DNA of 64,000 nucleotides, from the NCBI GenBank assembly GCA_021234155.1, contig JAJEKV010000002.1, positions 40,971,841 to 41,035,840 on the forward strand, read 5' to 3'. A program made the translations under genes and the position numbers. Shown here in pieces: positions 1 to 34,170 of this stretch. Under the pieces are notes generated by a model. That model searched no databases, had not been told where the DNA came from, and worked only from the letters and a program-made list of their open reading frames with translations. The DNA is from Isoetes taiwanensis (lineage: Eukaryota > Streptophyta > Lycopodiopsida > Isoetales > Isoetaceae). The first letter of the stretch is position 1. Each line of letters opens with the position of its first letter.

Positions 1-69
1 CAATCTAAGATACTCCCTTTTTGTTTCCTGCTTAGCTTGTCCTATAGACATCTTAAATTTATGCTTTTT

Positions 70-321
70 TTATTTGCATTCTGCGTCGAACCAAGCATTA
101 CATGGCAAACCTTTTAATCTTCTCTGCGATACAAAACATTTTTCAGCTGCATTAGTCACCATATTAGATAACACATCACTTAAATCTTTTGCCGTTTCTG
201 GCCATACAATTGCCAAAGCTTGTTCTTCACAAAGTGCCTCGTACATATCAGCCCTTGCCTTATGCATATAAAGCCTCTTACCTGATATAGGAACTGGAAT
301 GTTTTTATGTCTCTCCATCAT
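70..321 (-). pseudogene. LINE inter-domain linker between endonuclease and RT
   Basis: The 83-residue minus-strand frame ends with LPCNAWFDAECK. The motif W(F/L)D(A/T)EC is typical of the linker between endonuclease and reverse transcriptase in plant LINEs. The GC-rich LINE in this window has the same block (NRWFDTECKEH, near 8210). It follows the endonuclease in the right order and orientation, so it is part of the same element. No RT block is visible before the window edge. Confidence 0.65.
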
Positions 322-432
322 ATAAAACTCACTATTATCGATACATGATCTAATTCCGTGCGTAACTCTCCAATATCTAATTTGACCACCTGCTGCTCAA
401 AATCTGCCTTGGCAATGATAAGGTCTACCACA

Positions 433-1130
433 CTAGCATTTTCCTAAACTAGGGTATTTAGATGCCCCATTAAAAATAAGCAAATCTAAACCACTGCACA
501 CATTCAGAACATGTCTCCCCTGAGGATTAGGCCAACGTGCTTCACCATTTGATATCTCATTCCGACCACAACTTCTCAATTCATTATCATCAAGGTGTTC
601 CATCCAAATAGGGTCGCCATTTGGGCTAACAACGACTGCTTCTTTTTCTGCAATAGGCCCATTAAAATCTCCAAGTAAAAGAACATCTCTGTTTTGCATT
701 AAGGTAAGCACATCTTGCTCTATGTAAAAGAAAAGATCATCACGATCTAAATTACATGAATTATATACTAGGGATTTTCTTGGTGGAAAATAACATCCCA
801 CAACAAATATATTACCTTGCTTGCCTGGCATTTCAACCCAAACATACTGTTTTGTTATCTTATCTTTTATCTTTAAGGACGCGGACCAAATGTACACATT
901 CATCTCTTACATAGCATGCAATTCCTCCAAAACCACGAAGTCTCCAACCTCTAATATTCCATTCTGAATGTAACAGCGTGAAGCCCTTGATATTCACCAA
1001 TCCCTCTTCCTCATGCTAACATGTTTCTAAAAAGAAAATTAAATCTACTTCTTCTAATAAATCACCCATTGTATCAATTTTAGATGCTTTCAGTGAGTTA
1101 ATATTCCAGCACATGACCTTGATGGTCTCA
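433..1130 (-). pseudogene. LINE APE-type endonuclease (broken)
   Basis: The exonuclease-endonuclease-phosphatase fold nicks target DNA to start target-primed reverse transcription. The N-terminal part (about 1130-930) shows MCWNINSLKASKID, LIFFLET and GGIACYVR, with a stop inside. The continuous frame 903-433 has VGCYFPPRKS, LDRDDLFF, LLGDFNGP (catalytic Asp and Asn) and RWPNPQGRHVLNVCSGLDLL. The final SDHxP block is not readable in frame. A stop and at least one frameshift make the gene non-functional. Confidence 0.8.
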
Positions 1131-1354
1131 ATTTCCTATGCTACAATATCATCCACTATAACCTTTCCTTTTTTCCAATAAGATTCTGACCGTTTTGTTT
1201 GGCTGCCTTGAACTTTTGCACTTCTGCCTTATGTTGCATGAATTGCTCTTTGGTAAAATCCTCGTTTAACCATACAGATTGACCCTTCAATGAGCTTTTC
1301 TTCTTTAACACATTCATTCTGTATTCCTGCAAATTTCACAATGGTATGCTTAGG

Positions 1355-1735
1355 TTATTCAAATGATTTTCCTACTCGAAATGCTTCAATAATTTTACAA
1401 TCATCAATATCTAGCTTATCTTTCAGAAAATGAACTACCTTTGCTTTCGTATTTTCTGTAGGTTCTTTTGATAGGTCCACTAGACGTAGATCAAGCATTT
1501 TGTTCCTCTTCTCTTGGTCTTCCATAAAATCCGTAAGCTGTTGCTTCAATTCAGTGAAGCAATTATCTTCTTGAGCATCATATCCAATATGAGTAGCATA
1601 TCCATTACTCTATGTTTGTTCCTGGTGTTCAACTTCTGCCCTCAGCCCAGCTCTTATACATTCCATTTCCTGCTTAAGATCAGTCTTCAGGGTATCAATT
1701 TCTCTCTTAAGATTAAGTTTCATAAGCAACAAGAT
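1355..1735 (-). pseudogene. LINE ORF1-like coiled-coil/nucleic-acid-binding fragment
   Basis: On the minus strand a Lys/Glu-rich heptad-like stretch (about 1735-1600) leads into a segment with KVVHFLKDKLDIDD followed by IIEAFRVG. This is the layout of LINE ORF1 proteins, a coiled coil followed by an RRM-like domain that binds the element RNA. An in-frame stop near 1610 separates the two parts, and the 64-residue open frame at 1355-1549 covers only the second. The assignment rests on this layout and on position upstream of the endonuclease; I see no diagnostic single motif. Confidence 0.5.
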
Positions 1736-1740
1736 TTAAA

Positions 1741-2213
1741 ATGAAACACACTTATTTAAGAAGTGCGTTTGAAAGATTCCTTTAAAAAAATTGAAAACTT
1801 AAAAAAACAGACAAAATAGGGAGCAAAATAGATTGTTGAGCACTTAGCGTTCGGAATACCACAGGAAAAGTAATATTTCTGAAGCTATTTCATTTTAAAA
1901 AGAGGGCAGAAAAAAAAATGCTTGTTTTAAGGAGAGAAACACTAGTTTTGGAAACTCAACAAGTTCTTATTGTTGAAAATAGAAGCAAATACAGTTTGTC
2001 TTTTTGCACACTTAATGTAAGTACCATCAAAATCAAACAAATAAAAGACAAAGAGTGTGAAATCATGGAGCAAGAAAGAGTTGTTCTAACTAAACGTTGT
2101 TGAAGACACAAGTCTCTCAGTTTAAAAATTTTCATAAATATGTATTACAATTCTTAGTAAGTTTAAAATATAACAAGAGGCACTCAAACAACCATGAATG
2201 ATATTTAGACATT
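1741..2213. other. AT-rich spacer, nothing recognised
   Basis: About 470 bases between the LINE and the methyltransferase-like gene. The stretch is A/T-rich with several poly-A/T runs. The only open frame (1918-2103, +) is low-complexity and matches nothing I know. The left end of the composite locus may lie here, but I found no terminal inverted repeat. Confidence 0.5.
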
Positions 2214-2826
2214 TCAACTTGTCTGTATAAAATCATACGACAGGTGGCTCTTCCCAGTCGACAGGACTCTCGCCCTTGGATCTGTCTCTTGCGAGGCCAC
2301 AAAGCCAGAGACGCCTGCTTCTGATTCTAAGGCTATGGGAACAGGCGGTTTGGCGGGCTCTAGCTCCACGGGCTCCAGGTCCACGAACTCCACCTCCTCG
2401 TCTTTCCTTCCAGTGATAGGAGGCTGGATTTCTGTGTAAGTGCCTTTGACATCCCCAGCACCATTCTTTGCTCCCAGTTCCTTATTTTCATCAGGAAAGG
2501 ATTCACAGGAGCTTATTCTGGTCCTGATGAAACTTATTTTGTCTGCGTCAATATCAACAAAAACAACATTACGTCCCTGTTTAAGGGCGCAAATTGCTGT
2601 GGTGCCTATTCCAGAGAATGCATCCAAAATCCAGTCGCCCGGGTGAGAAAACCACTGTATCAAATTATTAATAAGCCTTTGTGGCTTCTGGTAATGGGAC
2701 ACCACAACGCCTTGTCTCTGTGGGTTTCTCAACTTTTGCAAGACAGCAGGGAACTGGAAAGCATTGCACGGAGGCGTCTTCTCATTCTGCGTATTAAAAT
2801 GTACCATGGTTTTTTTGGTGTATGCG
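2214..2826 (-). CDS. DNA N4/N6 amino-methyltransferase-like C-terminal exon
   Basis: The exon appears to start after an acceptor (TTATTACAG, at 2827). It encodes NAFQFPAVLQKL, then VVSHYQKPQRLINNLIQWFS and WILDAFSGIGTTAICALKQG, followed by VVFVDIDADK. This order, with a motif X-like QKP..L before the AdoMet-binding DxFxGxGTT loop (motif I) and the acidic motif II, matches the C-terminal half of beta-class bacterial-type N6-adenine/N4-cytosine methyltransferases. The remaining 90 or so residues are acidic and proline-rich and look disordered. The catalytic (D/S/N)PP(Y/W/F) motif IV, which lies upstream in the beta class, is not found in the neighbouring frames. The enzyme is therefore incomplete, truncated, or has an unrecognised upstream exon. 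Related eukaryotic enzymes are known, for example N4-cytosine methyltransferases of Marchantia and of bdelloid rotifers. Specificity cannot be read from this sequence. Confidence 0.65.
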
Positions 2827-2863
2827 CTGTAATAACCTATATGGAAATGCTCAAAGCAACTGA

Positions 2864-3358
2864 CTAAGCGCGCACATGTGCATGTGGATTCCTTCTCATT
2901 CTTTGCTTTAGAATAGCCACATGTGCCGGGTATAACTTTCTCACCTGTAGCACTCTGACCCCATCTTCATTCTTTGGTGGCCTCTTAATCGTGCTCAGTG
3001 TCAAAGAAATAGTTTGCTTTAGTAGCTTCGTCTCATTAACCCTTTTCAAAATAGCACTCGACTTGTCTAAGGGCCGCAAAACAATATCTGCCCCAGGAGC
3101 CTTTTGAAGTGCTTCTGCCGACTCCTCTATAGTCAAGGCCTTTGTGGTTCTTGACTTTTTTTTGGGTTGTGTATCTACTACCAAGGCTTGCCGCTTACCC
3201 TTACCTCTCATTACCACCACTTCCTCCTCTTCCTCTTCTTGTTCCTCTTCCTGTTCACTATCTTTCTCCACGTCCTCCTTAGAACGTGGGTACCACAGAC
3301 CTTTGGTCATAACCTTCTCGTCACAGACTGTGACTGATGAAAGAATGTCCACTATGTC
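2864..3358 (-). CDS. Acidic/basic linker exon upstream of the methyltransferase domain
   Basis: An open frame follows an acceptor-like CACTACAG (just above 3358). It begins DIVDILSSVTVCDEK and contains a run of more than ten Glu, a basic KKKSR patch resembling a nuclear localisation signal, and a C-terminal basic segment (KQRMRRNPHAHVRA). It is followed by a stop 38 bases before the methyltransferase exon. The shared strand and short gap suggest an exon of the same gene, with a frame change or small intron between. The Glu-rich region looks disordered. I recognise no catalytic motif here, in particular no DPPY-like sequence. Confidence 0.4.
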   Translation of the reverse strand, partial: DIVDILSSVTVCDEKVMTKGLWYPRSKEDVEKDSEQEEEQEEEEEEVVVMRGKGKRQALVVDTQPKKKSRTTKALTIEESAEALQKAPGADIVLRPLDKSSAILKRVNETKLLKQTISLTLSTIKRPPKNEDGVRVLQVRKLYPAHVAILKQRMRRNPHAHVRA

Positions 3359-3423
3359 CTGTAGTGCAGTGTAAATTAGGAAGTTGACGGTATAAATTTA
3401 TACGGTAAAGCCACAGAGATCAA

Positions 3424-3845
3424 CTTGCATAGCCAAGCTTGTAGTTATCTGCAATGTAATCATGAACGTCCTTTGGCTTGCACATGCTAATACGAAGCAT
3501 TCAGTATGTACACGACATCCCCGTCGTCGTTTATGCAGTTCATGAGAAGCTCATCTTCGTTTTCTGTGGAAGTTAAGCTTGTCATCTCCCCGGCGGGGTA
3601 GTAATCCTCCATCTTAAACCCCCCTGGCCCCGACCACACAAGTACAGGTATGCATCCGTTGGGTAGCGCTTTCTGGCTCCCCTGTGGACATACCATGTCA
3701 CATCTTTCAGTTCGTAGGTCTGTATCTTCGACGTTTGTGTCTTTGATGGTTGTCCCTTGCTTTTGATAGCAATCTTGGGGCTGAAAAGGCGCAAAAAAAC
3801 CCTTTTTACATCAGAAAAATAGTTTTTTAACACAACTTTAAACAA
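3424..3845 (-). pseudogene. First coding segment of the minus-strand gene, frameshifted
   Basis: Three overlapping frames carry what looks like one protein segment. The first (3845-about 3690) ends with TYELKDVTWYVHRG; the next continues with ALPNGCIPVLVWSGPGGFKM; a third has RISMCKPKDVHDYIADNYKL and ends at 3424. The changes of frame near 3690 and 3500 suggest indels, or tiny introns I cannot place. The segment lies directly downstream of the palindrome region, as expected for the 5' end of this gene. No family recognised. Confidence 0.35.
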
Positions 3846-4066
3846 TTTAGCTCTAAGAAAAGTGGCTTAAAGAACCCTAAATTTGTGCTATTTTACCCCT
3901 TTTTCTCTGGAAACAGACCTTAAAATACAACACCATTGTTCAAATACTATGGTTCCGGACCTCTCTTTAGACATTCCACACACATTTTAAATTTAGACCA
4001 CGAAAGTGGTACGCCATATAAATTTATACCTACAGAGAAGACAGATGTTTGATTTTATGCCCTTAC

Positions 4067-4845
4067 GGTATAAATTTATACCGCAAGTGTTTACGAACTG
4101 TTTCTTTTAGCGACTGTGGTCTCCCACAGTATAAATTTATACCGAGAGGGCTCTGGAATGGTATAAATTTATACCGCTAGTGCTCAGACGGTATAAATTT
4201 ATACCGTTGCAGAACACTCGCGGTATAAATTTATATCGAAAAAGTTCTGGAACGGTATAAATTTATACGCTCCGAGCACGAGCGGTATAAATTTATACCG
4301 AGAGAGTTCTGCAACGGTATAAATTTATACCGTCTGAGCACGATCGGTTTAAATTTATACCATTGCAGAGCCCTCTCGGTATAAATTTATACCGTGGGAC
4401 CTTAGACTCGGTATAAATTTATACCATAGACCCAAGACAAAACAAAAACAAGAAGATTAAAAGAGATGTGTAACGAGAATGGTACGGATTAGAGACTTAC
4501 GTGGCCATGACCGTATGGATTCGCTTATAGCTGTTAGTGAGAGCAAATTAGGGTGAGTATATAAGGCGCAGCGAGAGCGGCTTCGATTCCGAACAGCGTA
4601 TATAGAAAGTAGACCGGCGCCCGCCGGGCTTAAGTACCTCTGTTCTGTGCCTTTCTGTATAGCGGTTCTCCATAACGTCTCCTATATGAATATCTGTAAG
4701 TTTTCGTATAAATTTATACCATTTCTGTTTTACCTTACACTTCTCTGTATAAATTTATACCATCTCCGTATAAATTTATACCATCTCCGTATAAATTTAT
4801 ACCGTTCGCTTACGTTCCTGCTTTTGTGTGGTATAAATTTATACC
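4067..4845. repeat. Helically phased array of 16-bp palindromes GGTATAAATTTATACC
   Basis: Sixteen copies, perfect or with 1-3 changes, start at 4067, 4128, 4160, 4190, 4222, 4254, 4284, 4316, 4346, 4378, 4410, then 4705, 4746, 4767, 4788 and 4830. Diverged copies also lie at 3389 and 4015. From 4128 to 4410 the start-to-start spacing alternates 30 and 32 bp, about three helical turns. In the second group it is 41, 21, 21 and 42 bp, about four, two, two and four turns. The spacers are not conserved. Each unit reads TATAAA on both strands. The position between two divergent genes and the phasing point to binding by a symmetric protein on one face of the helix, as promoter/operator, iteron-like origin or transposase-binding region. 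Confidence 0.9.
4558..4566 (+). promoter_or_regulatory. TATA box candidate for the plus-strand gene
   Basis: TATATAAGG lies between the two palindrome clusters, about 300 bases before the ATG at 4866. It sits in a sequence less AT-rich than the array, followed by GC-rich DNA (4565-4635) suited to a start site. If used, the transcript leader would contain the five palindromes at 4705-4845, each able to fold as RNA. Functional use is inferred from sequence and position only. Confidence 0.4.
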
Positions 4846-4865
4846 GTCTGACGCTATTGCAGACT

Positions 4866-5112
4866 ATGGCTGGAGATAAAAGGGTTTCAGAGACTCCCTG
4901 TCCTCCCTGTCGCAGGCTCCCTCCTCTGATGGTTTTCACACCTGCTCCAATGTCACCAGGTAGTAGCCACGAAACTTCTGCCTCCGATAGTCAAAGCCCC
5001 AGCCCTGATGTTTGTACACGTCGTCTTCCACCACCAGTTCAGTTTACTCCACCACAGCCTGCTCCTGAATGTCGTTTGCCCCCACCAATGCGTTTTACTC
5101 CACCAGTCTCGC
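4866..5112 (+). CDS. Proline-rich repeat protein, N-terminal part, interrupted by LINE
   Basis: From the ATG at 4866 the frame shows three copies of a repeat: RRLPPLMVFTPAP, RRLPPPVQFTPPQ and CRLPPPMRFTPPV, separated by Ser/Pro-rich linkers. At about 5105 the sequence changes to CT-rich DNA that I assign to the inserted LINE. The same repeat resumes at 10.66 kb. The consensus (R)LPPPxxFTP resembles a short linear binding motif in disordered sequence rather than a folded domain. The gene faces away from the methyltransferase gene across the palindrome array. Confidence 0.6.
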
Positions 5113-5231
5113 CATTCTCCTCACTCTCTCTCTAGCGCCCTCACTCTCTCTCTAACGCCCTCACTGCCCTTGCATAGAGCCCCCTTGCTTTGCCCCTTTC
5201 TGGCTTTCTCTCTCTAGGGTTTACAATCTCT

Positions 5232-5560
5232 CTCTAGCCCCCAAACCCCCAAACCCCCAAAAGGTGCTCTGACCACGATTTTGAGTCCCCAAATTGGATT
5301 CTAAGCATCCTTTTTGCAGCCAGAGACCCCTCAAACTTTGGAACTCCCAAAGAACCCCCAAACCCCAAAAGGTGCTCGACCACGATTTTGAGTCCCCAAA
5401 TTGGATTCTAAGCACCCTTTTTAAGCAGCCGAGAGACCCCTCAAACTTTGGAGCCCCAAAACCCCCAAACCCCCAAAAGGTGCTCTGACCGCGATTTTGA
5501 GTCCCCAAATTGGATTCTAAGCACCATTTTCGCAACCAGAGATCCCTCAAACTTTGGACG
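5232..5560 (+). repeat. LINE 5' tandem repeats, about 117-bp period
   Basis: Three consecutive units each contain AAAAGGTGCTC, GATTTTGAGTCCCCAAATTG and CCCTCAAACTTTGGA, separated by CCCCAAAC-rich sequence. They lie directly before the ORF1 ATG at 5563. Tandem 5' monomers act as promoters in some LINE families; that role here is inferred. Confidence 0.85.
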
Positions 5561-5562
5561 TC

Positions 5563-6960
5563 ATGGCCACAGAAGATGGGCCAGCCTGGGAAACCCAAGG
5601 CGAGGGGCCGCTACGCAAACGGTCCCGATTAGCCATCATGGACAGGCGAGAGTCATCCTCCATGAAGAAGGAGGCTCGGGCTAAGGCTAAGGCCCCTTCA
5701 GCGCGGCCAGCCCGGCCGGAAGGGATTGATTGCTCAGACCACGCAGGAACTCCTGCCTCGGCAGAGAATTGGAGCCACGTCAAAGTGGGCATGGAGGCTA
5801 ACAGTGCCCGTATTGAGGCTAACAGTGCCCGCCTGGCTGGCATGGCAGTGGAGATGGAGTCCTCAGCACCCCATGTGCTCAGAAGGCAACTGGTGTCGAG
5901 AAGAACCGCATCACAGGTCTGGAGACCCGTACACAACACGTAGAAGATGGCCATGGCCTCGCACACTTCGAACAGCAACAGGCCATGCAGGAGCTCGCTG
6001 ATATACGGGCCCGCCTGGACTCTGTGTTCATCACTCTGGACACCATGACACAGGAGAGGGAGCGGGCAATGCATGAGACGATGGTCACGGTGTCTCGGCT
6101 TCAGTCAGAGGTTGAGGAAGCCACCACCATGGCACGGGGAGCGCAGGCTGCTCTTGCAGACAGCCAGACACAGCTTCGGGCTCTTCAGAGTACGATCGGG
6201 GCAGCAAGCCCGGCTCTGGATGCCCGTGTGCTGGGGCTCGAGCACGCCCTTGCTATTCAGAGCCTGGAGCTCCAGGGGTTGCGGGCAGCCATCCATAGAC
6301 AGGGCCAGGGTCTCCCTACCGAGGTTCATAGTCAGTCGCAAAGCGGTGCGGTGCGGGAGATGGCCAAGCAAGCTTGAGCCCACAAGAGCCGTGCTCCCCG
6401 ACTTCCTCACAGGCCGAGGGCGCAGCTCGCACCGCTACCCTTAATAGCCTCCACGCCGGCAGCCGGACCACGCCGCTGCTGCCCGCGACTCAAGCCACCC
6501 CACGCCATCCCAGCCACCACCACCACCCCCCAAAGACGGGCCCGGCCCTCGCCCACCTTTGACCCCCAGCCGCAGAGAACTCCAAGCCTTGACATGAGAG
6601 GCCACAATTTGGTAGTCCGAGGCATGCCAGAAGAGGAGGGGGAGAGTCTCGTCCACAACATCCGAACACACATTCTCGATTGGATGACATTCCCGGCGCC
6701 AGTTCACATTTCCCGAGCAGCCCGTCATGGGGCTCAGCGCCCGGGTCATGACCGCATTGTCATATTCGCGGTTGTGGATGTGCAGGTGCGTGATGGCCAT
6801 ATTGCGCCAGGGCAAGATGTTGAAGGGGACATCCCTGTACGTGGACCGGGACCTCACACCCGCACAGCAGGAGGCACGCAGACAGGAGCTTGTCAGGGTC
6901 AAAGGCATTTGCCACCAAGGAGGTGCCGCAGGATTGTTTCGGGGCAGAATGCAAATTTTC
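5563..6960 (+). pseudogene. LINE ORF1 (coiled coil plus RRM-like part), frameshifted
   Basis: The frame opens with MATEDGPAWETQGEG and a basic patch (RKRSR). After a frame change it continues at about 5985-6377 with a long heptad-repeat region beginning MQELADIRARLDSV, a coiled coil expected to trimerise or bundle ORF1 protein. A third frame (6594-about 6850) has NLVVRGMPEEEGESL and DWMTFPAPVHISRA, which fits the RRM-like domain of LINE ORF1 proteins. The product would bind the element RNA. At least three frameshifts make it non-functional. Confidence 0.65.
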
Positions 6961-7199
6961 CGCCAACCTGCTACTGCTGCAGACCCCGCAGCCCCAACCG
7001 CAGCTGAACGTGGCCCTGCTTCTTCTTCTCCTACCACGGCCCCCCCTCTCCTGCTCCTACTCCTGCTCCCTCACAACCCACGCCCTCTCAGCCACATGCT
7101 GCCTCCGCTCCATCTACTTCTCACTCAGCCTCTCGCTTCCGCCCCCTCCCCTCAATCAGTGCGCATACCACCACTACCTGCCGACAAATAGGAATTGTG

Positions 7200-7815
7200 C
7201 CTCCGGGTGGTCTCATGGAATTGTTGAGGCTTCCCTTGGCAGAAGGGGGACAGACTCAACTCCGTGGCAGCCGATATGGATCTCATCTTTCTCATGGAGA
7301 CATGGGAGCATCTTTGAGCCGCGATGCACGACCTGCCCGGTTACCAACATTTCTCGGTCTTCAATACACATGCAGACCGGAGGGTCATGGTGGGGTTGCT
7401 TGCTACTACCGGACAACCTTGGCACATTCGGTTACCCTCCAGAAGACAGACAGACACAACCGGTACTTGTGGGTTCGTGTGCATAATACCAGTGGCAACC
7501 CTCTTTTTCTGGCCGCCTGTTATTTCCCTCACGCAGAGAGCACCTTCTATCGCAGCCACTCTGATGCGGATAGGATGGACCCTTATGTCGATCTATATGA
7601 TGACATACGAAGCCTGCGCTTGGGTAGGGTCGTCCTTCTTGGAGATTTCAATGCACCGGACAGAGTAGAGCAGCCCATGAGACTTGACCCCCTCGGCGAC
7701 GACGATGTCCCCGCAGCCTACGTCCGCCAGAGGCAACCCGCCCACGAGGATCGGATGACGGCCAGTCACTTTCGCTTTGGCGACAGTTGCTCCCGCTATG
7801 TGGTATTTTTGACTT
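7200..7815 (+). pseudogene. LINE APE-type endonuclease
   Basis: The frame shows GHGGVACYYRTTLAHSVTL, YLWVRVHNTSGNPLFLAACY, FPHAES and VVLLGDFNAPD, the conserved core of LINE endonucleases including the catalytic GDFN block. The first part (WN and E-containing motifs) lies near 7200-7300 in a different frame. A later block near 7890, VDYVLVSCAK, is the usual DYxL motif before the final SDH. Frameshifts separate these blocks. Confidence 0.8.
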
Positions 7816-8593
7816 GATAATTTGCAATGGCTCATCCGCGATGGCCCGCTTCTGCAAACAAGTGCACATGCGCATGTGACAATCGGGGGAGGGTCTAGTG
7901 CGGTGGACTATGTGCTCGTAAGTTGCGCCAAGATATGCATCTCATCAGTCGTTTCCGGGTGGGCACCGACAGTCGGGATGAGGAGGTCGACTCAGATCAT
8001 CGCCATCCTCAGTTGCGACTAGATTATGAGCAGGCAGAGGACTATGCCGAGATGCTCATGGACGCCGCCAAAGAATTCTGCGGACCCCACACTAGAGCAA
8101 ATGGACCAGCACCGATTGACTTCGCTATTATGGGATGCAGCAGACAGGTGCTTTGGCAGATCCCCCCCGCGTCGCCGCTCAGGGACAACAACATTTCCGC
8201 GTAACCGATGGTTTGATACGGAGTGTAAAGAACACAAGCGCCAGCCACTCACATTCGATCCGGATCCCGGGGCAGCTTGCGGGCCACCACGACGATCGCA
8301 GCGCCCATCCGAAGGAGACAAAGGCGGTACCTTTTGCCGCATCGGGGAGATGTTCGGCCTGCTGGACACTCATCCTCGAACCTTTTGGCATAGAGTGCTT
8401 TGAAGGCCAGCCCAGCCTACAGGGGACATCACACCCGGGCAAGGGGGAACAAGATTTGCAAAGCAGCTCTATGACCCACCGTGGACGCTGCGCCCATACC
8501 CCCACAGGATGGCCCCCCATTGGTTCTCGCGTAGGAGGATGTTGTGGAGGGCCTGCAACGACTGGCTAATGGGAAGGCAAACATCTCGATGGT

Positions 8594-9312
8594 ATGCGTG
8601 CCGAAGTTACTCAAATGAGCGGGGCGTACCGGTGCCGATCCTCACTACCCTGCTCAACAGAGCATTGCAGGAAGGTTTCCCCCGACAATGGACTACAAGC
8701 AGGGTTGTCCCCATTCACAAGGCGGGTGACCCACACTGTCCGGCCAATTACCGACGATCATGGCCAGTTCAATATTTGCTAAACCGCTATCGGCATTCTC
8801 GAAAGCAGCAGCTTGACCCGGGGCAGAGGGCGCCAGATGTCGCGAGCCCTCACACAAGCAGGCTTTAGACCCCGCCACTCAACGATTGACCATATCTTTA
8901 CACTGCGGGCACTAATTGAAGACAGCCGGAACCATCGGCAGCACTTGTATTGCTGCTTTGTGGACATCGCGAAGGCTTTTGATACTGGTCCCCCGAAAAG
9001 CCATGGGCTAGATCTGGCCAATCAAGCTGCCGCTGCCGTTGCTGTAATGCCATATACAAAGCTGTATGAGAGTTGTTTTGGCGAGGATGCACCCGACGGG
9101 CCAAGCATTCACCAAGAGTATCGGGTCCGGCAGGGCTGCCCCTCTCACCAACACTTTTTGGCCTCTACATTGATCGCTTAGAGACCGGCTTCTCGAGCAT
9201 GGGGGATGGCATACGCCTTTTGCACCAGGTCATCCACCAGCTCATCTATGTGGACGATGTTGACCTTCTCGCCCACACTCCAAAAAGCTATGCAACTCAT
9301 CCGATGCCCTAG
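8594..9312 (+). pseudogene. LINE reverse transcriptase
   Basis: RT blocks appear in order across three frames: ALQEGFPRQWTTSRVVPIHK (8660-8720), TQAGFRPRHSTIDHIFTLRA (8850-8915), YCCFVDIAKAFDT (8950-8985), EYRVRQGCP (9115-9140), LSPTLFGLYIDRLE (9142-9185) and the catalytic YVDDVDLLAHTP (9247-9282). The order and the YVDD motif identify a non-LTR retrotransposon RT. Frameshifts interrupt it between nearly every block. Confidence 0.9.
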
Positions 9313-10149
9313 ACACATTCTCGTCGCTACGAGACATGCGCTGAATCTGCCAAGACCGTAGTGGTTCTCATATCCTCTTCACGCCACCCCACGCCTCCCC
9401 GCACTCACATATCGGGGGCGGCTGGGAGGTCACGCCCACCTACAAGTACCTAGGGGTGGAGTTCCCCTCCTCGCCTCTGTTGGGAGGCGCCCATCCGCTA
9501 AGGGTGACAAAGAAGCCGGAAAGCACTTTATCCCATGCGTAACAACAAATCACCGTGCGAGCTCTATGATTGGGGCCATCATTCACATCTGCTTTTGGGG
9601 CACTAGTTGAGCTGTCCCTTCAGACGGGTCGAGGTTTGGGGCCCGGGTCGCCTCTTTGGCGACACGGAATGACTTAGAGCAGGTGCGAAGGCATTTTTGG
9701 CACGCACTTGGGGTGAAACCTTCAGTCCCCTATCATCGATTCTCGCTGCGAAACCGGATTCTTGCCGCCTGGGGGCAGCCCTTGATAGACACATCGCCTA
9801 TTTTCGTAAAGTGGCTAATATGGGTGATGCTTTCGGCTCCGCGACTGGCTTACGCCGTGGGCAATGGGCCCGCAGCCTTCCGGGGCCTGTTGGAGGGGTA
9901 AGAGAGATCGCTGGTTTGCCGATGGAACGTCGCGAGAGCACAAAATGCGCGCAGTGTAGACACAGAGGCCGATCGTGACAGCCTGCGGGAGTACCTGGAC
10001 GCTTGCTTCCTTGGCAAGCTCTGGGACCCCGGCGCTCGAGAGCAGGTCAAAATGGCCCATTACGAGGAGCACATCAACCCCGTGTTAGCCCGGGGCCCGC
10101 AGCTCTACCTGCGTTCCCAGCTGCCCCTGAAAAAGCGAAGACTCATTGC

Positions 10150-10310
10150 CTCCATTCGCACAGGTGCCCACCATCTTCGTATCGAGACGAGCAGGTGGAT
10201 TGGGGAGCCCCGCCAGGACAGGCTCTGTTAGTGTTGTCAAACGGGTGCCATTGAGGATGAGTCTCACACTTTCCAGAGTTGCCCAGCATTCAGTCAGATC
10301 TGGGCCAGAT
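10150..10310 (+). pseudogene. LINE C-terminal zinc-knuckle region
   Basis: Across two frames the sequence gives HHLRIETSRW, a Cys pair, then EDESHTFQSCPAF. The pattern C-x2-C...H-x4-C with (I)EDExH and CPAF recurs at the C-terminus of every LINE in this window (17.2, 17.8, 25.65, 34.65 and 43.0 kb). It probably binds template RNA or target DNA. Confidence 0.7.
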
Positions 10311-10544
10311 ATGCTCCCTTAGTACGGCAGGACTTGCCCCTACATTTGCTGATGAACACACCGCCAAGATGCGTTTCGGGGTCGTACATCCGAGAGGTAA
10401 TGGATCTCAAGGAGCTCACCTTTGCCCCCACCTGGCTGCCCGCTGATCAGGCACTACGGGTGCGGTGCATGAGTGTATATATTTGTGTGTTTTTGCATTT
10501 TGTATATTGGAACAGTTTGTCAGCAGGCTGATTGCTGCCACATT

Positions 10545-10680
10545 TTTTCCCTCGAAAACCCTTCGGGGCGGGGGTTTTTTAATCCGGGTAGTAATCCGCT
10601 TGCTGCGCTTTTGTATTGGGTCCCATAGACCGATTGATCTCCGTGGACGATAAAAATACCTTCCTTCCTTCCTTCCTTCC
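10545..10680 (+). repeat. LINE 3' hairpins and (CTTC)n tail
   Basis: Two structured elements follow the coding region. At 10548-10580, CTCGAAAACCCTTCGGGG pairs with a following GGGGGTTTTTT. At 10627-10643, AGACCGATTGATCT forms a weaker stem, followed by GTGGACGATAAAAA and (CTTC)n. A close relative of the first lies at 42898, and a close relative of the second is on the minus strand at 14617-14660. The pair may mean that a very short, 5'-truncated LINE (about 10600-10680) is appended to the tail of the longer one. Confidence 0.6.
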
Positions 10681-11080
10681 ACCACAGCCCACAGAACAGC
10701 GAAACTTTCCTCCACCCATTCATTTCACTCCAGCAAGGGAGGACGAGCTCACACTCCCTCCTCCAGTTCGTTTTAGTCCTTGTCTCATAGTCCAGCGTAG
10801 ACAGCCTCCCCGGAGGCAAATCACACCAACTCCATCCATCTCGCTAATTGATACTACACTAAGCGGGAGCAGTCATCGCCATGCAACTCCAGTATTCTAT
10901 GACACTTCAGGAGCTGCTCAACTACGTCACCAACCTCGAGTACGTTTTCCCAGAGAGAGGGAAAGCAGCTCCCTCCAAGACCTGCCCACACCAAACCTCT
11001 CAGCATCTACTAGTACACCATCTGTTGCTTCCTGTCAGATGAAGAAACACCTAATGTTGATCTCTCAGAAGAGGACATAG
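10661..11080 (+). CDS. Proline-rich repeat protein, continuation after the LINE
   Basis: After the LINE tail the frame resumes with RNFPPPIHFTPAR, LTLPPPVRFSPCL and RRQPPRRQITPTP, the same repeat as at 4866-5110. A Ser/Thr-rich tail follows, ending at 11080. The in-frame start in this piece belongs to the LINE tail and is not real. At about 11030 another frame opens with LSDEETPNVDLSEEDIAKPQ and leads into the transposase-like protein, so the proline-rich region is probably its N-terminus with one frameshift between. Confidence 0.55.
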   Translation, partial: FLPSFLPPQPTEQRNFPPPIHFTPAREDELTLPPPVRFSPCLIVQRRQPPRRQITPTPSISLIDTTLSGSSHRHATPVFYDTSGAAQLRHQPRVRFPRERESSSLQDLPTPNLSASTSTPSVASCQMKKHLMLISQKRT

Positions 11081-12400
11081 CAAAGCCACAAGACTCTCTG
11101 TTCGAATTCAAAGGTCTTGCGAGTGAAAACCTTAAGCGAAACTTACACAAGAAAGCATGTACATCCCAAAGAAGAAAGAAACTTATGGATGAGGCTCACT
11201 TGAGGGCCACACATACAAAGCACTGTTGTTTTCAACGTTGTTTGCTTAAGATTGGACTAAAGGAATTGAGGTTGATTCGTGATAGTTACAGTTCAATGAC
11301 TCTGCTAGACTAAATGGGTTACTTAGCCTTCAATATTAGGCCAGATTATGGTGAAAAGTTTACTTACACAGCTGGTGGCCACACCATCTGTCAAACAGCC
11401 TTTAAATTGATTCATGCTTTAGGCAGCAGACGACTTGACCGCCTGAAGAAAAGGCTTGACAAGAATCTAGGCATTAATGACTACTGCCATTCAGGAAGTA
11501 TATCCAGAATTCATGCCCTTCAATGTGTTTCCTGGATGGAAGGTTTCTTTAAGGAGTCATGCGAGAAACTCCCTAACAGCCCTATGTACCACTTGAGTGA
11601 CAACTTCACAAAACGTGAAGTCTACAATAATTATAAGGACATGTGTGTTGAGGCTGGAGAACGCCATGTATGCTACTCTTACTTCACTGTGCTCTGGAAA
11701 AAAAGAGTTTTCCCACGTGTCTATTCCTAGAAAGCACCGGATGTCTGTTTGTGCTACATGCTCTGAATTAAAAGCTCAGAGACAAAATGCAAGGACACTT
11801 CACACTAAAAGTAAGCTTTCACAACGTGCTCTTGCCTAGTTCTACTCAATGGTAAGTTTTTGTCCTGAACATATTTTCATTTCAGATGCATTGAAAGAGA
11901 AATTGAACAAGCACAGAGAACAACAATCTTTGGAAAGGAGAAAATTGACAAAACACAGGAAGAAAGCACTGGAACAACCACTAAACTACATATTGGTTGT
12001 TATTGATGGAATGGACCAGAAGAAGACCACCCTACCACATTTTGTCAATGTGCCTAAGGATGCTCCTGAAGAAGGTTGTTGGTGCTATGGTATTATTTAG
12101 ACAACCCATGTCATTAATGATTTATACCTGGATTTTGACCATTGTACTCCAGTCTAACTAGTGTACCTCTCGCATTAGATCCCCTGCTTGCCCCGTTTCC
12201 GTACAAAAAAAAAAAAAAAAAAAAAAAAATCATGTTAAAACTTTGTGCAATGAAATCCTGTGCTGCTGAACTGAGTTCTGGCCCAATTCCAGTGCTTGAT
12301 TTCATGGGTATGCTCTTCAATCATGGAGGAACATTTTGTTGGGCTCTTGGTCATCGACCCCAGCATAAGAGAGGTATGTGTTGCTTAGATTTATTAATTT
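11027..12400 (+). pseudogene. Transposase-like protein of the IDGMDQ type (decayed)
   Basis: The pieces, in order and each in a shifted frame, are: 11027-11313, a basic region with a CC...HCC-type cluster (KHCCFQRCLLKIG); 11314-11730, with HSGSISRIHALQCVSWMEGF; 11720-11839, with RMSVCATCSELKAQRQNA (CxxC); and 11849-12100, with LNYILVVIDGMDQKKTTLPH. The last block, an Asp-containing IDGMDQxKTxxPH following a CxxC and a Lys/Arg-rich helix, is a signature I recall from transposase-like proteins found in invertebrates, dinoflagellates and other eukaryotes. It probably holds the first acidic catalytic residue. A further fragment (12250-12400) has FMGMLFNHGGTFCWALGHRP, which would fit the following HG...F block. 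At least four disabling changes are present. No superfamily name is assigned. Confidence 0.55.
12205..12230 (+). repeat. Poly(A) tract, possible retroposed insert
   Basis: A run of about 25 A follows a short segment (about 12100-12204) that separates two transposase fragments. A poly(A) end inside a coding region suggests a small retroposed insertion such as a SINE or processed transcript piece. I could not define its 5' end or a target duplication. Confidence 0.35.
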
Positions 12401-14570
12401 GAAGCCCTGTATTGTTAGAGAAAATTAGTGGTTTTTTCGAGCTAGATCAGAAGTTTATGCTTCAGGGGTTTAAACTGTTGAACATCCAGCTGGTCCCTTC
12501 ACCAAGACTGACTTGGATTAGGAAATTGAAGAACTTCTAAAGCCTATTTGTAATGTGAATGTGGCTCCTGCCGATGATGAAATGAAGGGTAGTGGGTAGC
12601 AGACCCAATTTGCCTACACTTGCTACATTCCTGGCCATTTGAATTGATCAAGGTGCACCTAATCAGCTTTAGAGATGGCGATTCAACATGCCATGCTGCA
12701 GTCAATCCCAACTAAACCCTAAGCGTCTAGAATTCCTCCCCTTTTGGAATGGCTATATTATTGATTTTCCTAAAAAAAATCACCTTATTAACTTTAGCCA
12801 CAAAATTTGACTAAAGGTCTAAAAAATTGCCATTTGGCAAATTTTAGCCACTCACTAATACCTTGGGTGATTCCATGAGATTATGTCCCCGGCAGATTAC
12901 AATCACCATAGAGCCTGATTTAGCCTATCTGCAAATTATGCACAAGAGGGACGGATGGAGTGGTCAATTCTAGCCATTGTTTATTGCTAGCTGAAGTCAT
13001 TGCCATAACTCGGTCTGATCTATCTGGAGAACCTCCAGCCATCAATCGGCTTCTTCTTGAGTCTAAGTCAGGTACGAGACTTCATTTGATGGATTTGATG
13101 TATTGATGTGTTTGATGTATTATGTTGGGATGGTTTATCACTTCCCTCCAAGGTAGGCTTGTTGTTATATTGCTTCTAGTGCTACGTTATTATGTTTGCT
13201 TCCGCTGTTGTAGGAGCCTATAGAGAACGAGTCAGAATGACATCTTCGTGTCACTACTCATTTGTCTGGCCAACCCAGACACGGGATAGACGGAGGGCCC
13301 GTGCGACAGATTGAAGTTGGATGAGGAACGTCTTTCAATATATACGGTGAGCTGTCGTATACAGCACAAAGAGCTTCATAGAAAGCCAAAAACCCTAGTC
13401 CACGATCGCTTGAAAAAATACTAAAAAGTCTTTTACCACCGAAAAAAGAACTAGAAGCGATAACTTTTAGATTTTTAGATATACCGAAATGTGCCCCAAG
13501 GTCCTAAAACCCAATCTCTCATTAACTGCCCCTCAACAGAGACAATCCAAAACAGACTTCTATGAATATTGGCGACACACGAATCGTCAAGAGGATTGAG
13601 ATAAAGTTTAAAGCACAGATATTAATAAGGATGGCAAAATTCAAACATTCTTTACGTCTTTCACCAAAAATGAAATAAATGAGAAAAACATGCATTACAA
13701 CATCATAAGAAAGTTGACTTTTTTTTGCAATTGTGAATAAGTACCCTTCTTTAAATGATGCTTTAGATGGTACATAGAGATGTCTGGGAAGGTCAGCTTC
13801 GGGCCCACAAGCCCATTTGATCATACAGTTGAGCCTTATCCCTTTGTCTCTCGTTGGGAGGCTACTCGTGACACTTTAGTAGAGACAAGATAGATGTCGT
13901 ATTATTTCTAAAGCAAAAGGCTTAATCTAAAGCATTTTATTGATTACTATATATCATAACATATTTGAAGGTCATAGTCAACTCATTTAAGTCCCATATT
14001 AAATCAAACACTCCGCGTGATAACTTTACTAAAATAGTGGTCAAAATGCATGTTCCATTTGATGCTATCCACGTCAAGCACTACTATAGTGAGGACGAAC
14101 ATAGCATATCAACCATTCTTATGTCTTATGATCAAGGAGTTAATGGAATAAATAATATAAAGCATTACCCGAGTATTCCAAAGAAGAAGAGTCCTCCTTC
14201 TTCTTTTTTCTTTTTTTCTTTTTAAATATATGGAGGAGGGGAATGGTTGAAAGAGGTCATGCATGCACCATGCATGAGCTTGCAAGCGCGTGCATGCAAA
14301 AAATGGTTCTATGTACAAAATCAGTCGAATACTTGACTAAGGAGTTATAGAGGAATCTACATCGCTAAATCAAATAGTTGACCAAGGAGACATAGAGGAA
14401 AGAACATGGTTTTACATGACTACTATTTTTTGGGTCTTGCCCCATTCCCACTGATAAATTGATGGCATAAAGTAGAAAGATTGATCGATTAAAAAGGAGT
14501 TTGACAAGCTTATATGGGTTACTTTATTGATTTTCCTTTATTTTAATTTTTTGAAGGACGATAATCTATT
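12401..14570. other. No gene recognised
   Basis: About 2.2 kb with frequent stops in all frames. A minus-strand frame at 13522-13824 begins MIKWACGPEADL and includes SKASFKEGY; this faintly recalls the MFKWA...ALKEGF region before LINE RT, but it is too weak to call. A CT-rich stretch near 14200 and the palindromic CATGCATGCACCATGCATG (14261-14279) are the only other features noted. Confidence 0.5.
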
Positions 14571-19275: not shown

Positions 19276-20875
19276 CGGCTTGGGCCTCCAGAGGTCATTG
19301 CAGACGGAATTCATGGCAATGGATTGGGCTGGCATAAGAGCATGGTCATGGGTAGTCCACTCCATCCGCCCCTCCTGTGCGCACTTTGCAGAGTAGGTTG
19401 AAAAGTGTTGGGACTGATCAGAGTCTCACGGATGCATAGCCAAGGGGCTATTCCCGGGTTGCATCTTCCCGCCCCCGGATGGGGCGGTAGGGATCACTCC
19501 CTCCGAGATCTACATGCCGACTCAAGGTGACTAGAGGGCCATCGCCCTTATTCGCCTTGAACCCAATGGAGAGTGACGCATCACTCCACGGGTGTCAAGC
19601 CCATGCCTTGCCCACACGCAGTGGCAAGCCATTAGACCTAGTCCACAGGGATCTCCGATAGACTTTACACACCAGAGGGACCGTTCTCCTGAGTCAGGAC
19701 ATGAACCTCCTTATGAGCCAGTCTAGCCCCTTCACCCACAACCAGGTGTGGTTCTTGTACACAGGCCGAATTTACAGTGTGCTAAAGAGGCTAGCTAGGA
19801 GCATCAACTACTATTCCTTAGGGTCTCTACCCCCCTTCCCAATACAATGAGTCCACAGAGATACATCATCATACATATCACAGAAGAACTAAAGAACAAG
19901 ATCTAATCTAATCACAGAGTTAGGTTCTTTAGTTAGGCTCGATATCTAGAGATCTAGATAGCTGTTATGGGCAATTTAATAGGCTAAACCTACTTATTCA
20001 ATGACTGGGAGGCGGTTTAGGCTATTAAATTGACAAAATACTTGATCATTGGCTCGCTCCTCCTGTCCTGAACTCGACCATCCTGCTGAACTGCTAGAAG
20101 ATGAAGCTAGGAAGGGAAACTAATGAGCTAGATCGCTCAGACAGAGTTTGGGAGGTGGGTTAGGCTCCTGGAGCAAGCAAAACAGAGACCTAGAATGCTA
20201 TGGACGAAAATAGCAAGTTAGGGTTTCCTTTACCTAAATAGACAAGGGTTAGGGCTAGGGTTTCCCATTATCCCTTTAAGCATGTGGGATAATTGGGTAT
20301 GGCCCACTTGCCTTTATTAACTAGGTGGCATAAAGTGTCCACATGGGAAAATGTGTACATAGATAAATGTGCACATGGGTAAATGTGCACATTAATAAAA
20401 TGTACACACCTTGCAAGTTGCCCCCTAGGGTGCTACCTGCTTGGCTACACGTCGGCATACACGTCAATCGGGATGGCGTGTACGCGTGACGAGGCAGTAC
20501 AGTATACGTCTTAGGACCGTATACTGTGCTGGAACGTCACATCGATGGGATTAGTCTTGGGGTCAGGATGCTCAGCCATCCCGCCACACCAGCCGTCCAT
20601 ACGGATGCCGTGGTTGCGACATTTCTAGAGGTCCATGACCATCGCGTTCATTTTGCAAGTAATCCATTCCTGGCAATTAGTCATCATCCATGCTCACGAA
20701 CTGGTGTCTCCGCTTCGCACACTGCTCGTCTTATATAGCCCAACCGTTTGGAACTCTGTCGACGTGGACCAATCGAAACAGTGCTAACGTGGTTGCAATG
20801 CAAGGCCATTTCTAAATCCAGAATCTTTTCTCCCGCCGCATATCTAGCCATGGTACCTTCTGACACTTCTTTTTT
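19276..20875. other. Long non-coding internal region of the LTR element
   Basis: 1.6 kb with no convincing coding sequence, present again at 28595-30188. It holds a stem of two 19-bp arms with one mismatch (CAATTTAATAGGCTAAACC, 19972-19990, with its complement at 20014-20032), preceded by the palindrome CTAGAGATCTAG. Structured leader-like RNA is typical of packaging or dimerisation signals; that role is speculative here. Confidence 0.6.
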
Positions 20876-21222
20876 ATGATATCCCACTTCGAGTTGCCAG
20901 CATTAAATGACATTCCTTCCTTTCACGCCCGTCGGGTCATTAATATTTGTACCTTCGACCCACACATCCCATCGTTCATTCACGTTTCATCTCCACCGCC
21001 TCCCTTAACTACTTTCGGGGACTTAGCCAAATTTTTTACCTCTCAATCGACTCGCCGATCATTGCCACGGCACAACCAGCGGTTCTGTTTCATTCTCATC
21101 ATGCCCCTTCGCCACAACTTGTGCGCCCTAAAACCTTTTTTCGTCCCACTTCATTTCGTCTTACGCTCTCCGCCCTCGGCTTCATCACATCCGACCTTCG
21201 GTTCCTTTCCGGCGCTCCTCGC

Positions 21223-21628
21223 CATGGCGCTTCAACAAAATTCCCTACTCTTCAAGTTCTTTGCTCCACGGGATCCGGCTCTTTTTGAGTCATTATCTTC
21301 TCCACTCCAACCTTTAAGTGATTCCACGGGCGGTCCAAGTAGGGAAGTTGCAGAACGCCACGGTCTTTACGAATTCTCCAAACAGGACCTCCCTACACCA
21401 AATCCGGACCAACTCCGGCAGTTTGTCGCTCACATGATCAACACCACCAATGGATACGCCACCCGGGTCGATCAGACAGCCATTTTGCTTACCCCGGTTC
21501 TGCTTTCTCAGGTATTCCAGTTCCCTCTTCATAGGCCTTCTTTATCTTGGGCTGCCTTACAGGAACAGGATGTCTCTAAGTATGGCCAACTTCCTTATCT
21601 ATCTATCTTATCAGGCCAACACTCATAA
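21223..21628 (+). pseudogene. LTR element ORF2, first part (unknown)
   Basis: Read from an internal ATG near 21223, the frame has SREVAERHGLYEFSKQDLP, NPDQLRQFVAHMINTTNGYA and RVDQTAILLTPVLLSQVF, ending at 21628. The protein sense then continues in another frame (QANTHKLTNIAKSHDTFVKF). The same shift is present in the duplicated copy, so it predates the duplication or reflects the normal structure. No known domain recognised. Confidence 0.4.
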
Positions 21629-21974
21629 ACTCACGAACATTGCCAAATCACATGATACTTTTGTTAAATTTCTATGGCGAAAGTTCTATGGGTATTCCAT
21701 CAAGAATACCCACATAAATAAACAGTTTTTCAACATTGTTATTGTGGCCATCCACTCCACTCATCCTATTGATTGGCCACAAATTTTGTTTCTCTGACTT
21801 CTTCATGAAATTGATCGCATCCAAGCAGCCCCTTCTACAGGCCTTGAAACCGCCGTGGGTGCTCACCTACAAGCCATCATCCGTCATTGTGTCCCTATAC
21901 CCAGTCCAGGTTCCCCCACCACTCAGCATACTACTTCTCAAACATCCACCCACCAACCCTCCAATCCCATTCCT

Positions 21975-22296
21975 GGGTGAAAGCATGCTAGGGTGTACCA
22001 TCTAAAGTTCTTTTTAGGGAGTGCGAAACTACCCAGAAAAGTACCCAATACTGGGTACTGGGAACTTGCATTAATATCTCAATAAACAATAAGTGTGAGA
22101 GTTTATTCATACATTTTAGTCTTTAATAGTATTATCATCCTCTAATACTATAGATTGACATGTCAATGACCTTCAACTCAAAAATTTTGGATTGATTTTA
22201 ATGGAAAGAAAAAATAGAAAGTACCAGTTTTAAAAGTACCCAGTGTAGGTACTTCTGAGGGTTCCAAAAGTGGTACACCGTAGCATGCTTTCACCC
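21975..22296. mobile_element. MITE, 322 bp, TIR GGGTGAAAGCATGCTA, TSD TCCT
   Basis: The 16-bp terminal inverted repeats are perfect and are followed by imperfect extension (GGTGTACCA/TGGTACACC). The element is flanked by TCCT at 21971-21974 and 22297-22300. The duplicated copy has the empty site with a single TCCT (at about 31290), which proves the boundaries and the 4-bp target duplication. No coding capacity. Superfamily not assigned; a 4-bp duplication does not fit hAT, Mutator or Tc1/mariner. Confidence 0.95.
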
Positions 22297-23147
22297 TCCT
22301 ATTAACCACCAGGCTGAGACTTCACGGCCTCATCCTTCTCCTGGTCACACTCAAAATCAAGAAAAACCTATTTCTGTCTCCTCTTCCTCAACGGAAACCA
22401 CACACTCCAATTCTCACCATGTTTCTCAGGCGTCACAGTCTAATCGACAACAGGGCCCCGCACCTCCACCTTCTCGACAGGCCCTGTATCAATATCAACA
22501 GGATGTGCAAGCAGCCGTCCTTAAGCTTCAAGACTCTCAAGAAACCTTCATGAATGGCATTCAAGCTTACATAGAGGCCACAGAAGCGGTTCACAGGGAT
22601 CTCCAGGCTACCAACACAAAAGCTCAATCCCTGGAAGACAGTCTTCGAACGAAGCACGAGGCTCTTTTACAGGCCCGTGAATCTCTCAAGGCTGAACAAG
22701 AACAGACAAGCCTGCTCGCTGATCAACAGGCTCAGTTACAGTCAACTATTCAAGAATTGTTGGCTACCAACAAGGATAAGGATAAACTCCTTGCAGATCT
22801 CCAAACCATGTACACGGAGCTCTCTCAGAATTACAACAACCAGGTCCAAGAACTTCGTGAGCGCAATGTGCGCATCACTTCTCTCGAAGACCAACTTTCC
22901 ATGCTCGAAAATCAGGTCACGCCTCTCCAGGCTCAACTCACAGAAGCTCAAAAATAGAAGATCATTGATGATACAGAGATTGCCTCCCTTCGGCTTCAAC
23001 TCCCCACTCATGGGCAATCCTCTTCACAGGGCACGCTATCTCACAGAAGGTTCCGTGATCAATCCCGTCTTCTGCTAGAGAAAGATAATCAGATCCTGAC
23101 TTGGAGCATCAACTCAAACAAGCTGTTCAGTCGGTAGAAGAAGCTTA
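22297..23147 (+). pseudogene. LTR element coiled-coil protein, copy 1 (disrupted)
   Basis: Same protein as the intact 31063-32163 frame of copy 2. Here it is broken by the MITE, by a stop at about 22957 (CAAAAATAG where copy 2 has CAAAAACAG), and by a 2-base loss near 23096. It also lacks one of two KDKLLAD repeats found in copy 2. Long heptad-repeat segments (LQDSQETF..., KLLADLQTMYTELSQNYNNQ) indicate an extended coiled coil. Confidence 0.75.
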
Positions 23148-23160
23148 AAGTCAACATGAG

Positions 23161-24585: not shown

Positions 24586-25160
24586 TGTTAGTCCTGTATG
24601 TCCTGGTACAGGACTATGCATGCACACCATGGACCATGTCAAGAACAAGGATCCAAAGGCAGGTACAGGTCAGTCGGCAAAAGCCCAGCAGAAGGCCACA
24701 CAGAAGGCCACACCCACGCCAAAGAAGAGGCAGAGAACAGACAAGTGACGGGCCGTCAGCGTCAACGTGATTTCAGGCACCTCAAGAGGCAACGTCAACA
24801 TTCCTGCAAATCAGGCCTTCTTCCAGGAGTCGGCACCGAGATCTGACAGAGTATCTATTTGGGCCAAAGGCCATTGTACTATATATATGATCAGTAGAGC
24901 TAGCATTCACGGGCTAGATGAGTTTTTGGTCTTGTCTCCATTATGTTTCTCTCTATTGCGAGAGCTCATGTATCATCATTGATATCAAAGAGTTTTGTTC
25001 TCATCATTATGTTCTCATTGTCATCTTTTGTTCTCTCTCTTTTTTCCTTTCCTTTGTTTCTTTTGCAAATCCTGCATGACACAGCTACCAGATTCTCCTG
25101 TTTGATCCAAGGGTCCTCACAGAGAGCTGTCTTGTAGTTCCCGAACCCAGACTCTAAACA
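24586..25160 (+). repeat. 3' LTR of copy 1
   Basis: 575 bp, TGTTAG to CTAAACA, preceded by GGGGGGGAG and followed by target duplication TATAC. It carries the 11-bp duplication CAGAAGGCCAC shared with the LTR at 33584. Confidence 0.92.
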
Positions 25161-25165
25161 TATAC

Positions 25166-25380
25166 TACGAAGATCTGCCAACCTTTTTCACCCTAAATCG
25201 AGATATATTAGGGTTTTTATAGTATAGAGAAGTTTGTATGCATAATCATAATGTTGATGATAATGACAGTTTGAGTGAGAATGATGAGCTAGATGAGGAC
25301 TCAGAAACTCATCTATTGTTTTACAATGATATTTAAAATTATCGTCCAATAGGTCTTCGAGGCCTCCCATAGACGTAATA
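25166..25380 (+). pseudogene. LINE C-terminal domain, right half, and 3' hairpin
   Basis: It continues the frame broken at 17861: YEDLPTFFTLNRDILGF, a stop, then NDSLSENDELDEDSETHLLF and a stop near 25337. The 3' end has the stem AGGTC-TTCGA-GGCCT (25351-25365) and CATAGACGTAATA, followed by a CA/CT-rich tail to 25463. The second copy is at 34171-34385. Confidence 0.7.
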
Positions 25381-25463
25381 CACACACTCACACACTCTCT
25401 CTCTCCATCTCTCCCTCCCCTCCCTCCCTCCCCTTCCCTCCCTCCCTCCCTCCCTCTCTCTCA
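25381..25463 (+). repeat. Pyrimidine tail of the split LINE
   Basis: CACACTCACACACTCTCTC followed by CCCTCC and CCTCCC runs. The next LINE piece begins immediately after. The duplicate (34386-34464) differs in repeat number, as expected for a slippage-prone tract. Confidence 0.8.
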
Positions 25464-25933: not shown

Positions 25934-25969
25934 ACTTGATGGTCTTAGTAGGCATAATAACAAACATTT

Positions 25970-28107: not shown

Positions 28108-28119
28108 AGGGAACAGATC

Positions 28120-32163: not shown

Positions 32164-32170
32164 AGTCAAC

Positions 32171-34165: not shown

Positions 34166-34170
34166 TATAC

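Follow-up and report, generated by a model that had tools for sequence, protein, structure and literature searches.

A palindrome array between divergent methyltransferase and DUF7869 genes of an abundant DNA transposon in Isoetes taiwanensis

Palindromes and spacers in the window

Why does a symmetric 16-mer recur many times in the gap between two divergent genes of a lycophyte? The question is raised by a stretch of 64,000 nt from Isoetes taiwanensis (hereafter, the window), in which the palindrome GGTATAAATTTATACC is found 18 times when up to three mismatches are allowed, compared with a mean of 0.29 and a maximum of 4 occurrences in 100 shuffled sequences. The segment 4067-4845 harbors 16 of these copies, eight exact ones (starting at 4067, 4160, 4190, 4284, 4316, 4378, 4410 and 4830) and eight with one mismatch, and the remaining two start at 4015 (two mismatches) and at 3389 (one mismatch). 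The original prediction of 16 copies between two divergent genes is confirmed by this mismatch count against the shuffles; the unit at 3389, which lies toward the leftward gene, was missing from the earlier list. The spacings reported there are also correct, namely 32, 30, 32, 32, 30, 32, 30, 32 and 32 bp in the main cluster from 4128, 41, 21, 21 and 42 bp in the second cluster from 4705, and 52 bp from the outlier at 4015 to the unit at 4067, to which the omitted step of 61 bp from 4067 to 4128 has to be added. In the window, the second cluster ends 20 bp before the presumed start codon of the rightward gene (Table 1). No paper on the 16-mer was found in the literature searched, and no close exact pairs of it were present in viral contigs.

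Table 1. Features of the transposon copy in the window
Feature	Position	Strand	Remark
Left terminal inverted repeat	1728..1757	+	Two mismatches to the family motif; end shared with sibling copies
N6/N4 DNA methyltransferase catalytic part, leftward gene	2214..2807	-	Pfam, PHROGs
Junction of internal deletion of about 2 kb	2870..2876	no strand	Relative to L013 (L013 3544 to 5511 absent); alignment blocks
Remaining exon piece of leftward gene	2873..3163	-	93% identical to L013
Isolated palindrome unit	3389..3404	no strand	One mismatch
First coding piece of leftward gene	3423..3776	-	
Two outlying palindrome units	4015..4082	no strand	52 bp apart
Array 1, ten palindromes	4128..4425	no strand	Spacers of 14 or 16 nt, 8/9 from two sequence families, both orientations
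Presumed bidirectional core promoter	4558..4606		TATATAAG at 4558 (+) and CTATATAC at about 4599 (-); both also conserved in the siblings L006 and L013
Array 2, five palindromes	4705..4845	no strand	Spacings of 21 and 41-42 bp
Start of proline-rich N-terminal exon, DUF7869 (presumed transposase) gene	4866..5105	+	
LINE within presumed transposase gene	5106..10680	+	L006, which lacks the LINE, aligns to 5105 and resumes at 10678 (L006 9056/9050)
Rest of presumed transposase gene, frame-broken	10673..12077	+	Homology extends to about 12077 and does not reach most of DUF7869

The spacers had been described as not conserved, which is wrong. Eight of the nine spacers in the main cluster fall into two sequence families, one of 16 nt (GAGAGAGTTCTGCAAC type) and one of 14 nt (GCTAGTGCTCAGAC type), both orientations being represented, and the alternation of 32 and 30 bp is due to these two lengths. 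The mean best-partner identity of the main spacers is 0.826, compared with 0.497 in shuffles (sd 0.025, maximum 0.575, n = 1000). In addition, the main cluster is largely one imperfect inverted repeat with arms of 134 nt, 4105-4238 and 4283-4416, that are 88% complementary.

Phasing of the palindromes to the DNA helix, also predicted, holds within array families and is lost across dissimilar spacers. For arrays from 12 sources, the periodicity of the spacings is strongest at 10.5 bp (R = 0.63, n = 106 values that are not independent), and it persists when each spacing is counted once per array for six representatives (R = 0.59, n = 38). Genome-wide, there are 2108 close palindrome pairs; among the first 50 of these, the mode is 32 bp (18 pairs), and 13 pairs are spaced by 28-29 bp. 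For the 26 mutually dissimilar spacers from the same 50 pairs, no phasing was detected (R = 0.249, p = 0.21), and strict helix phasing, upheld inside families, finds no support among them. Therefore, the palindrome spacing is loose, about 28-32 bp, and the phase is retained by descent inside families.

The orientations of the spacers bear on how the arrays grew. Across 12 arrays, related spacers form 19 same-orientation and 16 opposite-orientation pairs, a count that omits the counterpart of the window array in the sibling copy L006 (7 same, 9 opposite) as a near copy. Same-orientation pairs only were found in the siblings L007 and L012 and in the second array of L010. Recombination or template switching between perfect palindromes that inverts the intervening segment would account for the mixed orientations with no recombinase involved. 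Because the units of the window and L006 arrays run in the same order and the same directions, apart from an additional unit in L006, such inversion would have to be old or slow, and rapid, shufflon-like inversion is ruled out.

An abundant transposon and its reduced copies

To place the array in its genomic setting, the host genome (1,658,258,908 bases in 1110 contigs) was searched for the exact 16-mer, which occurs 7218 times, compared with no occurrence of the reversed control. Ten stretches around the first-listed palindrome places were extracted and compared. The copies have precise shared ends and unrelated flanks, each end carrying AACAARGTTTAAAATGAAACRCACTTATTT or a near variant of it, the two in inverted orientation; the left end is common to the window and to L005, L008, L009, L012, L013 and L014. 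The copy L013 is complete, with 8601 bp between target duplications of ACCC and with termini AACAA, and its two ends agree at 29 of their first 30 bp. Four of the five complete copies examined are flanked by 4-bp target duplications (ACCC, AAAT, ATAG and TTGA), and none was seen for the fifth, L014. The 30-base terminal motif has 614 + 607 matches in the genome (1221; reversed control 0), and the first 100 matches listed include 23 two-ended elements, in all of which a left-type end is paired with a right-type end (the two types being G and A). Of these elements, 13 are 8.36-9.43 kb long and four are about 2.2 kb long.

Thus, the palindrome array belongs to a DNA transposon that is abundant in the genome, about 8.6 kb long, bounded by inverted repeats of 30 bp and flanked by target duplications of 4 bp; matching inverted repeats and target duplications of fixed length are both features of a terminal-inverted-repeat (cut-and-paste type) DNA transposon. 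No palindrome copy was found within the 30-bp termini. In the other copies, the cluster is kept in the same setting, and its constant position, within elements that have termini and divergent genes, excludes a free satellite array.

Among known transposons, Sola2 elements likewise combine 4-bp target duplications with short inverted ends, according to the excerpt of PMC3627910 considered here. The same excerpt gives AT-rich Sola2 targets (AWWT, ATAT, AAAT, ATTT), a preference that AAAT fits and that ACCC, ATAG and TTGA do not. Plant CACTA elements such as En/Spm have CACTA termini, a tnp2 transposase and subterminal arrays of motifs for the TNPA protein. Like the present element, En/Spm is a plant DNA transposon with many short repeats in both orientations, protein-binding there and presumably here, that are linked to promoter control and methylation. 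However, the En/Spm motifs are subterminal, whereas array 1 starts about 4.2 kb inside L013 at the divergent promoter. Assignment to CACTA is rejected, given the termini AACAA and a DUF7869 domain rather than PF02992.

The window copy is a relic, with an internal deletion and a LINE that splits the presumed transposase gene (Table 1), and the functional evidence therefore comes from its relatives. In positions 1-14000 of the window, no match was found for piece mt2 of L013 or for residues 111-221 of its piece mt3, the endonuclease domain of the LINE (PF03372) is located at 7197-7814, and no right terminus was found within the window.

Shorter copies retain the array together with both ends; this is the case for L005, L012 and L014 (2.2 kb) and for L009 (3.4 kb). 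A tblastn search with the L013 pieces revealed a trace of the first coding piece of the leftward gene in L005 and a fuller counterpart, 32% identical, in the similar L008; it revealed no coding remnant in L012, L014 or L009. L005, L012 and L014 are about 90% identical to each other, and the 2.2-kb copies look like one lineage. These four short copies were picked via their palindromes, and the reverse test used elements picked by their termini alone. On the contigs covered by the pair listing, exact palindromes in close pairs are found in six of the seven two-ended elements selected in this way, among them both 2.2-kb elements and one of 4.8 kb; the seventh, C24 (9.4 kb), has no such pair. For 19 single ends, a palindrome pair was found inward in 8 and outward in 1, and 11 had none inward.

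The divergent flanking genes

The palindromes occupy the intergenic region, with a DNA methyltransferase gene running leftward on one side and a gene for a proline-rich DUF7869 protein running rightward on the other, in line with the predicted symmetric sites between a methyltransferase gene and a transposase-like gene. The catalytic part of the leftward gene matches PF01555 (N6_N4_Mtase) in Pfam with E 7.5e-14 and a DNA methyltransferase in PHROGs with E 8.6e-13. An exon part of this gene that is present in L013 and absent from the window is weakly ParB-like (phrog_723, E 0.0037), with only an unrelated match below the cut-off in Pfam, and the L013 counterpart of the first coding piece has no Pfam match. 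In the rightward gene, the proline-rich exon is followed by DUF7869 (E 1.9e-52).

Both gene families are numerous. There are 1443 first-look candidates for the methyltransferase family genome-wide, of which 150 were scored, all of them above the Pfam cut-off, and 9902 for DUF7869, of which 150 were scored as well. Between the two scored sets, 24 pairs are located within 20 kb of each other, 22 of them divergent, compared with a mean of 0.57 and a maximum of 4 in shifted controls. A right terminus (at most 6 mismatches in 30) was found in the 1.5 kb downstream of 23 of 30 DUF7869 loci. Bacterial-type N6/N4 DNA methyltransferase genes are thus multicopy in a land plant.

The DUF7869 protein is presumed to be the transposase, possibly of the DDE/D type, on the basis of its context and of conserved acidic residues, Asp 28, 108, 147 and 150 being invariant in 20 sequences. 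Fold predictions of the exon and of the DUF7869 domain reached a pLDDT of 40 each, and no solved-structure relative scored better than E 0.17. The proline-rich exon of L022 has weak winged-helix matches below the Pfam cut-offs (RFX, E 0.012; Cdc6_C, E 0.063); the matching exon piece of L013 has no Pfam match up to E 0.1, and that of the window none up to E 0.01. A scan of viral sequences with two peptide patterns confirmed no relatives of the presumed transposase, and no paper was found in the literature searched for the term DUF7869.

The identity of these genes bears on two readings of the array. One is that the palindromes are the recognition or methylation target of the element's own methyltransferase, forming an epigenetic on/off switch for both genes. 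The methyltransferase gene adjoins the array, is divergent from the DUF7869 gene and has been amplified with it, and palindromes suit symmetric methylation. However, L005-type copies and L009 keep their arrays with no methyltransferase piece detectable by tblastn, and PF01555 comprises enzymes of many specificities; we consider this reading quite doubtful. The other, an iteron-type replication origin, shares with the element nothing beyond repeated symmetric sites and is hardly credible: no match to the scanned pieces in Pfam or PHROGs was recognized as a replication initiator, the Cdc6_C and ParB-like similarities, which are below cut-off, do not go beyond the domain level, and the copies flanked by 4-bp target duplications have integrated as insertions.

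Presumed promoter gap, conservation and possible role of the array

In the window, L006 and L013, two palindrome blocks flank a conserved, TATA-containing gap, in which one strand carries TATATAAG and the opposite strand CTATATAC, and L010 has a similar two-block layout with TATAAAG only. This gap is presumably used as a promoter. A divergent family, L023/L052, has a DUF7869 that is 75% identical and the same divergent genes flanking its palindromes. Here, the palindromes have the form GGTATRAATTYATACC or close variants of it, several with the core GAATTC instead of AAATTT, and neighboring palindromes of L052 are 113, 83, 21 and 67 bp apart. Positions 49-290 of L052, adjoining the leftward gene, contain a repeat of about 113 bp in three units, each with AGTATGAATTCATAC.

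Do these observations require a partner encoded by the element? The palindromes might instead be sites for a host transcription factor, that is, a captured enhancer that drives the transposon genes and has no role in transposition. They surround the presumed core promoter, the motif recurs in the related family, and some spacers contain TTCNNGAA (for example, GTTCCAGAAC), the core of heat-shock elements. However, in several units the core shifts with the element family from AAATTT to GAATTC, as would be expected for an element-encoded partner, and short copies devoid of genes retain the array. On balance, we regard the host factor as an unlikely candidate.

The degree of conservation differs between comparisons. 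Between the window and L013, 16.4% of the palindrome positions are mismatched, compared with 34.8% of the spacer positions (p = 1.6e-8), and the sequences outside the array are 25% different. Between closer copies, this contrast fades or disappears: for the window and L006, p is 0.04 against the spacers and 0.21 against the sequence outside, and L005, L012 and L014 show no significant excess of palindrome conservation over the remainder of the element. Such close copies, with no significant extra conservation, would be compatible with an array that is a functionless by-product of palindrome-driven slippage and inverted duplication, and so would the mixed spacer orientations, the large inverted repeat of the main cluster and the loose spacing in the genome sample. 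Against this stand the palindromes that outlast the spacers between the window and L013, the non-tandem palindromes at the same place in the divergent family and the retention of palindromes by most two-ended elements selected by their termini. A mere by-product appears improbable.

The reading that we favor, with our confidence evenly divided, is that the array is a control region of the transposon, where a dimer encoded by the element would bind the palindromes, which would serve as its operator and, perhaps, as an enhancer of transposition too, much as in phage Mu. The symmetry and conservation of the palindromes, the family-specific change of their core and their retention in short copies all point to dimer binding, repression and, perhaps, an aid to transposition. 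Binding would couple the expression of both genes via self-repression. The likeliest binder would be the DUF7869 protein, considering the faint winged-helix signal in the N-terminal exon of one family. Given that the array is retained in short copies lacking both genes, the bound complex probably also helps the ends to pair or marks the element for transposition; a cis role of the array in transposition is possible. A spacing of 28-32 bp would allow adjacent dimers to touch, with an exact helix phase only in some subfamilies.

How does such a control region compare with known systems? In phage Mu, internal repeated sites lie between divergent genes, and the sites in the present element share this position, likewise away from the ends. 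In the excerpt of PMC3362531 considered here, subdomain I-alpha of MuA is a winged helix-turn-helix that binds the transpositional enhancer, and the title of a reference listed there locates the enhancer site at the Mu operator. The transposase candidate of the present element may also have a winged helix. In contrast to Mu, this element is eukaryotic, with DUF7869 instead of MuA, 4-bp target duplications and perfect palindromes, and it carries a DNA methyltransferase gene and no recognized repressor gene. The nearest working model would be the combined operator and enhancer of Mu with the winged helix of MuA as its reader, and it serves here as an analogy only. A bolder, Mu-like version, which we rate as rather unlikely, is that palindromes read by the transposase silence the divergent promoter and license transposition, and that the bacterial-type methyltransferase of the element also marks these palindromes, providing a self/non-self or on/off signal.

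The transposon, which is very abundant in this plant, couples genes for a presumed transposase and a bacterial-type DNA methyltransferase through one palindrome-dense region. If proteins of the element read the palindromes, thousands of binding sites are dispersed through a lycophyte genome, and, if this holds true, self-methylation and self-regulation by plant transposons become a testable question.

Several minor features were observed in addition. The region of the leftward gene contains further palindrome arrays with a spacing of about 28-29 bp, at 3647-3807 in L013 and at 5175-5273 and 6171-6381 in L006; the window copy lacks the corresponding stretch through its deletion. Elsewhere in the window, two related blocks at 45250-45510 and 46440-46725 are dense in TTCTAGAA, a heat-shock-element-like motif, with seven copies at 45270-45500 and six at 46464-46715. 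Pieces of a tnp2/CACTA-type transposase are located beside these blocks, at 43647-44588, 47175-47729 and 52595-52924. A segment of about 9 kb with LINE-like pieces is present twice in tandem, at about 20860-29000 and 30170-38000, as indicated by matching ORFs and by a TRF unit that recurs at 28004 and 36990. Finally, a coding piece for a bromodomain (E 3e-14) at 59448-59822 likely belongs to a host gene.
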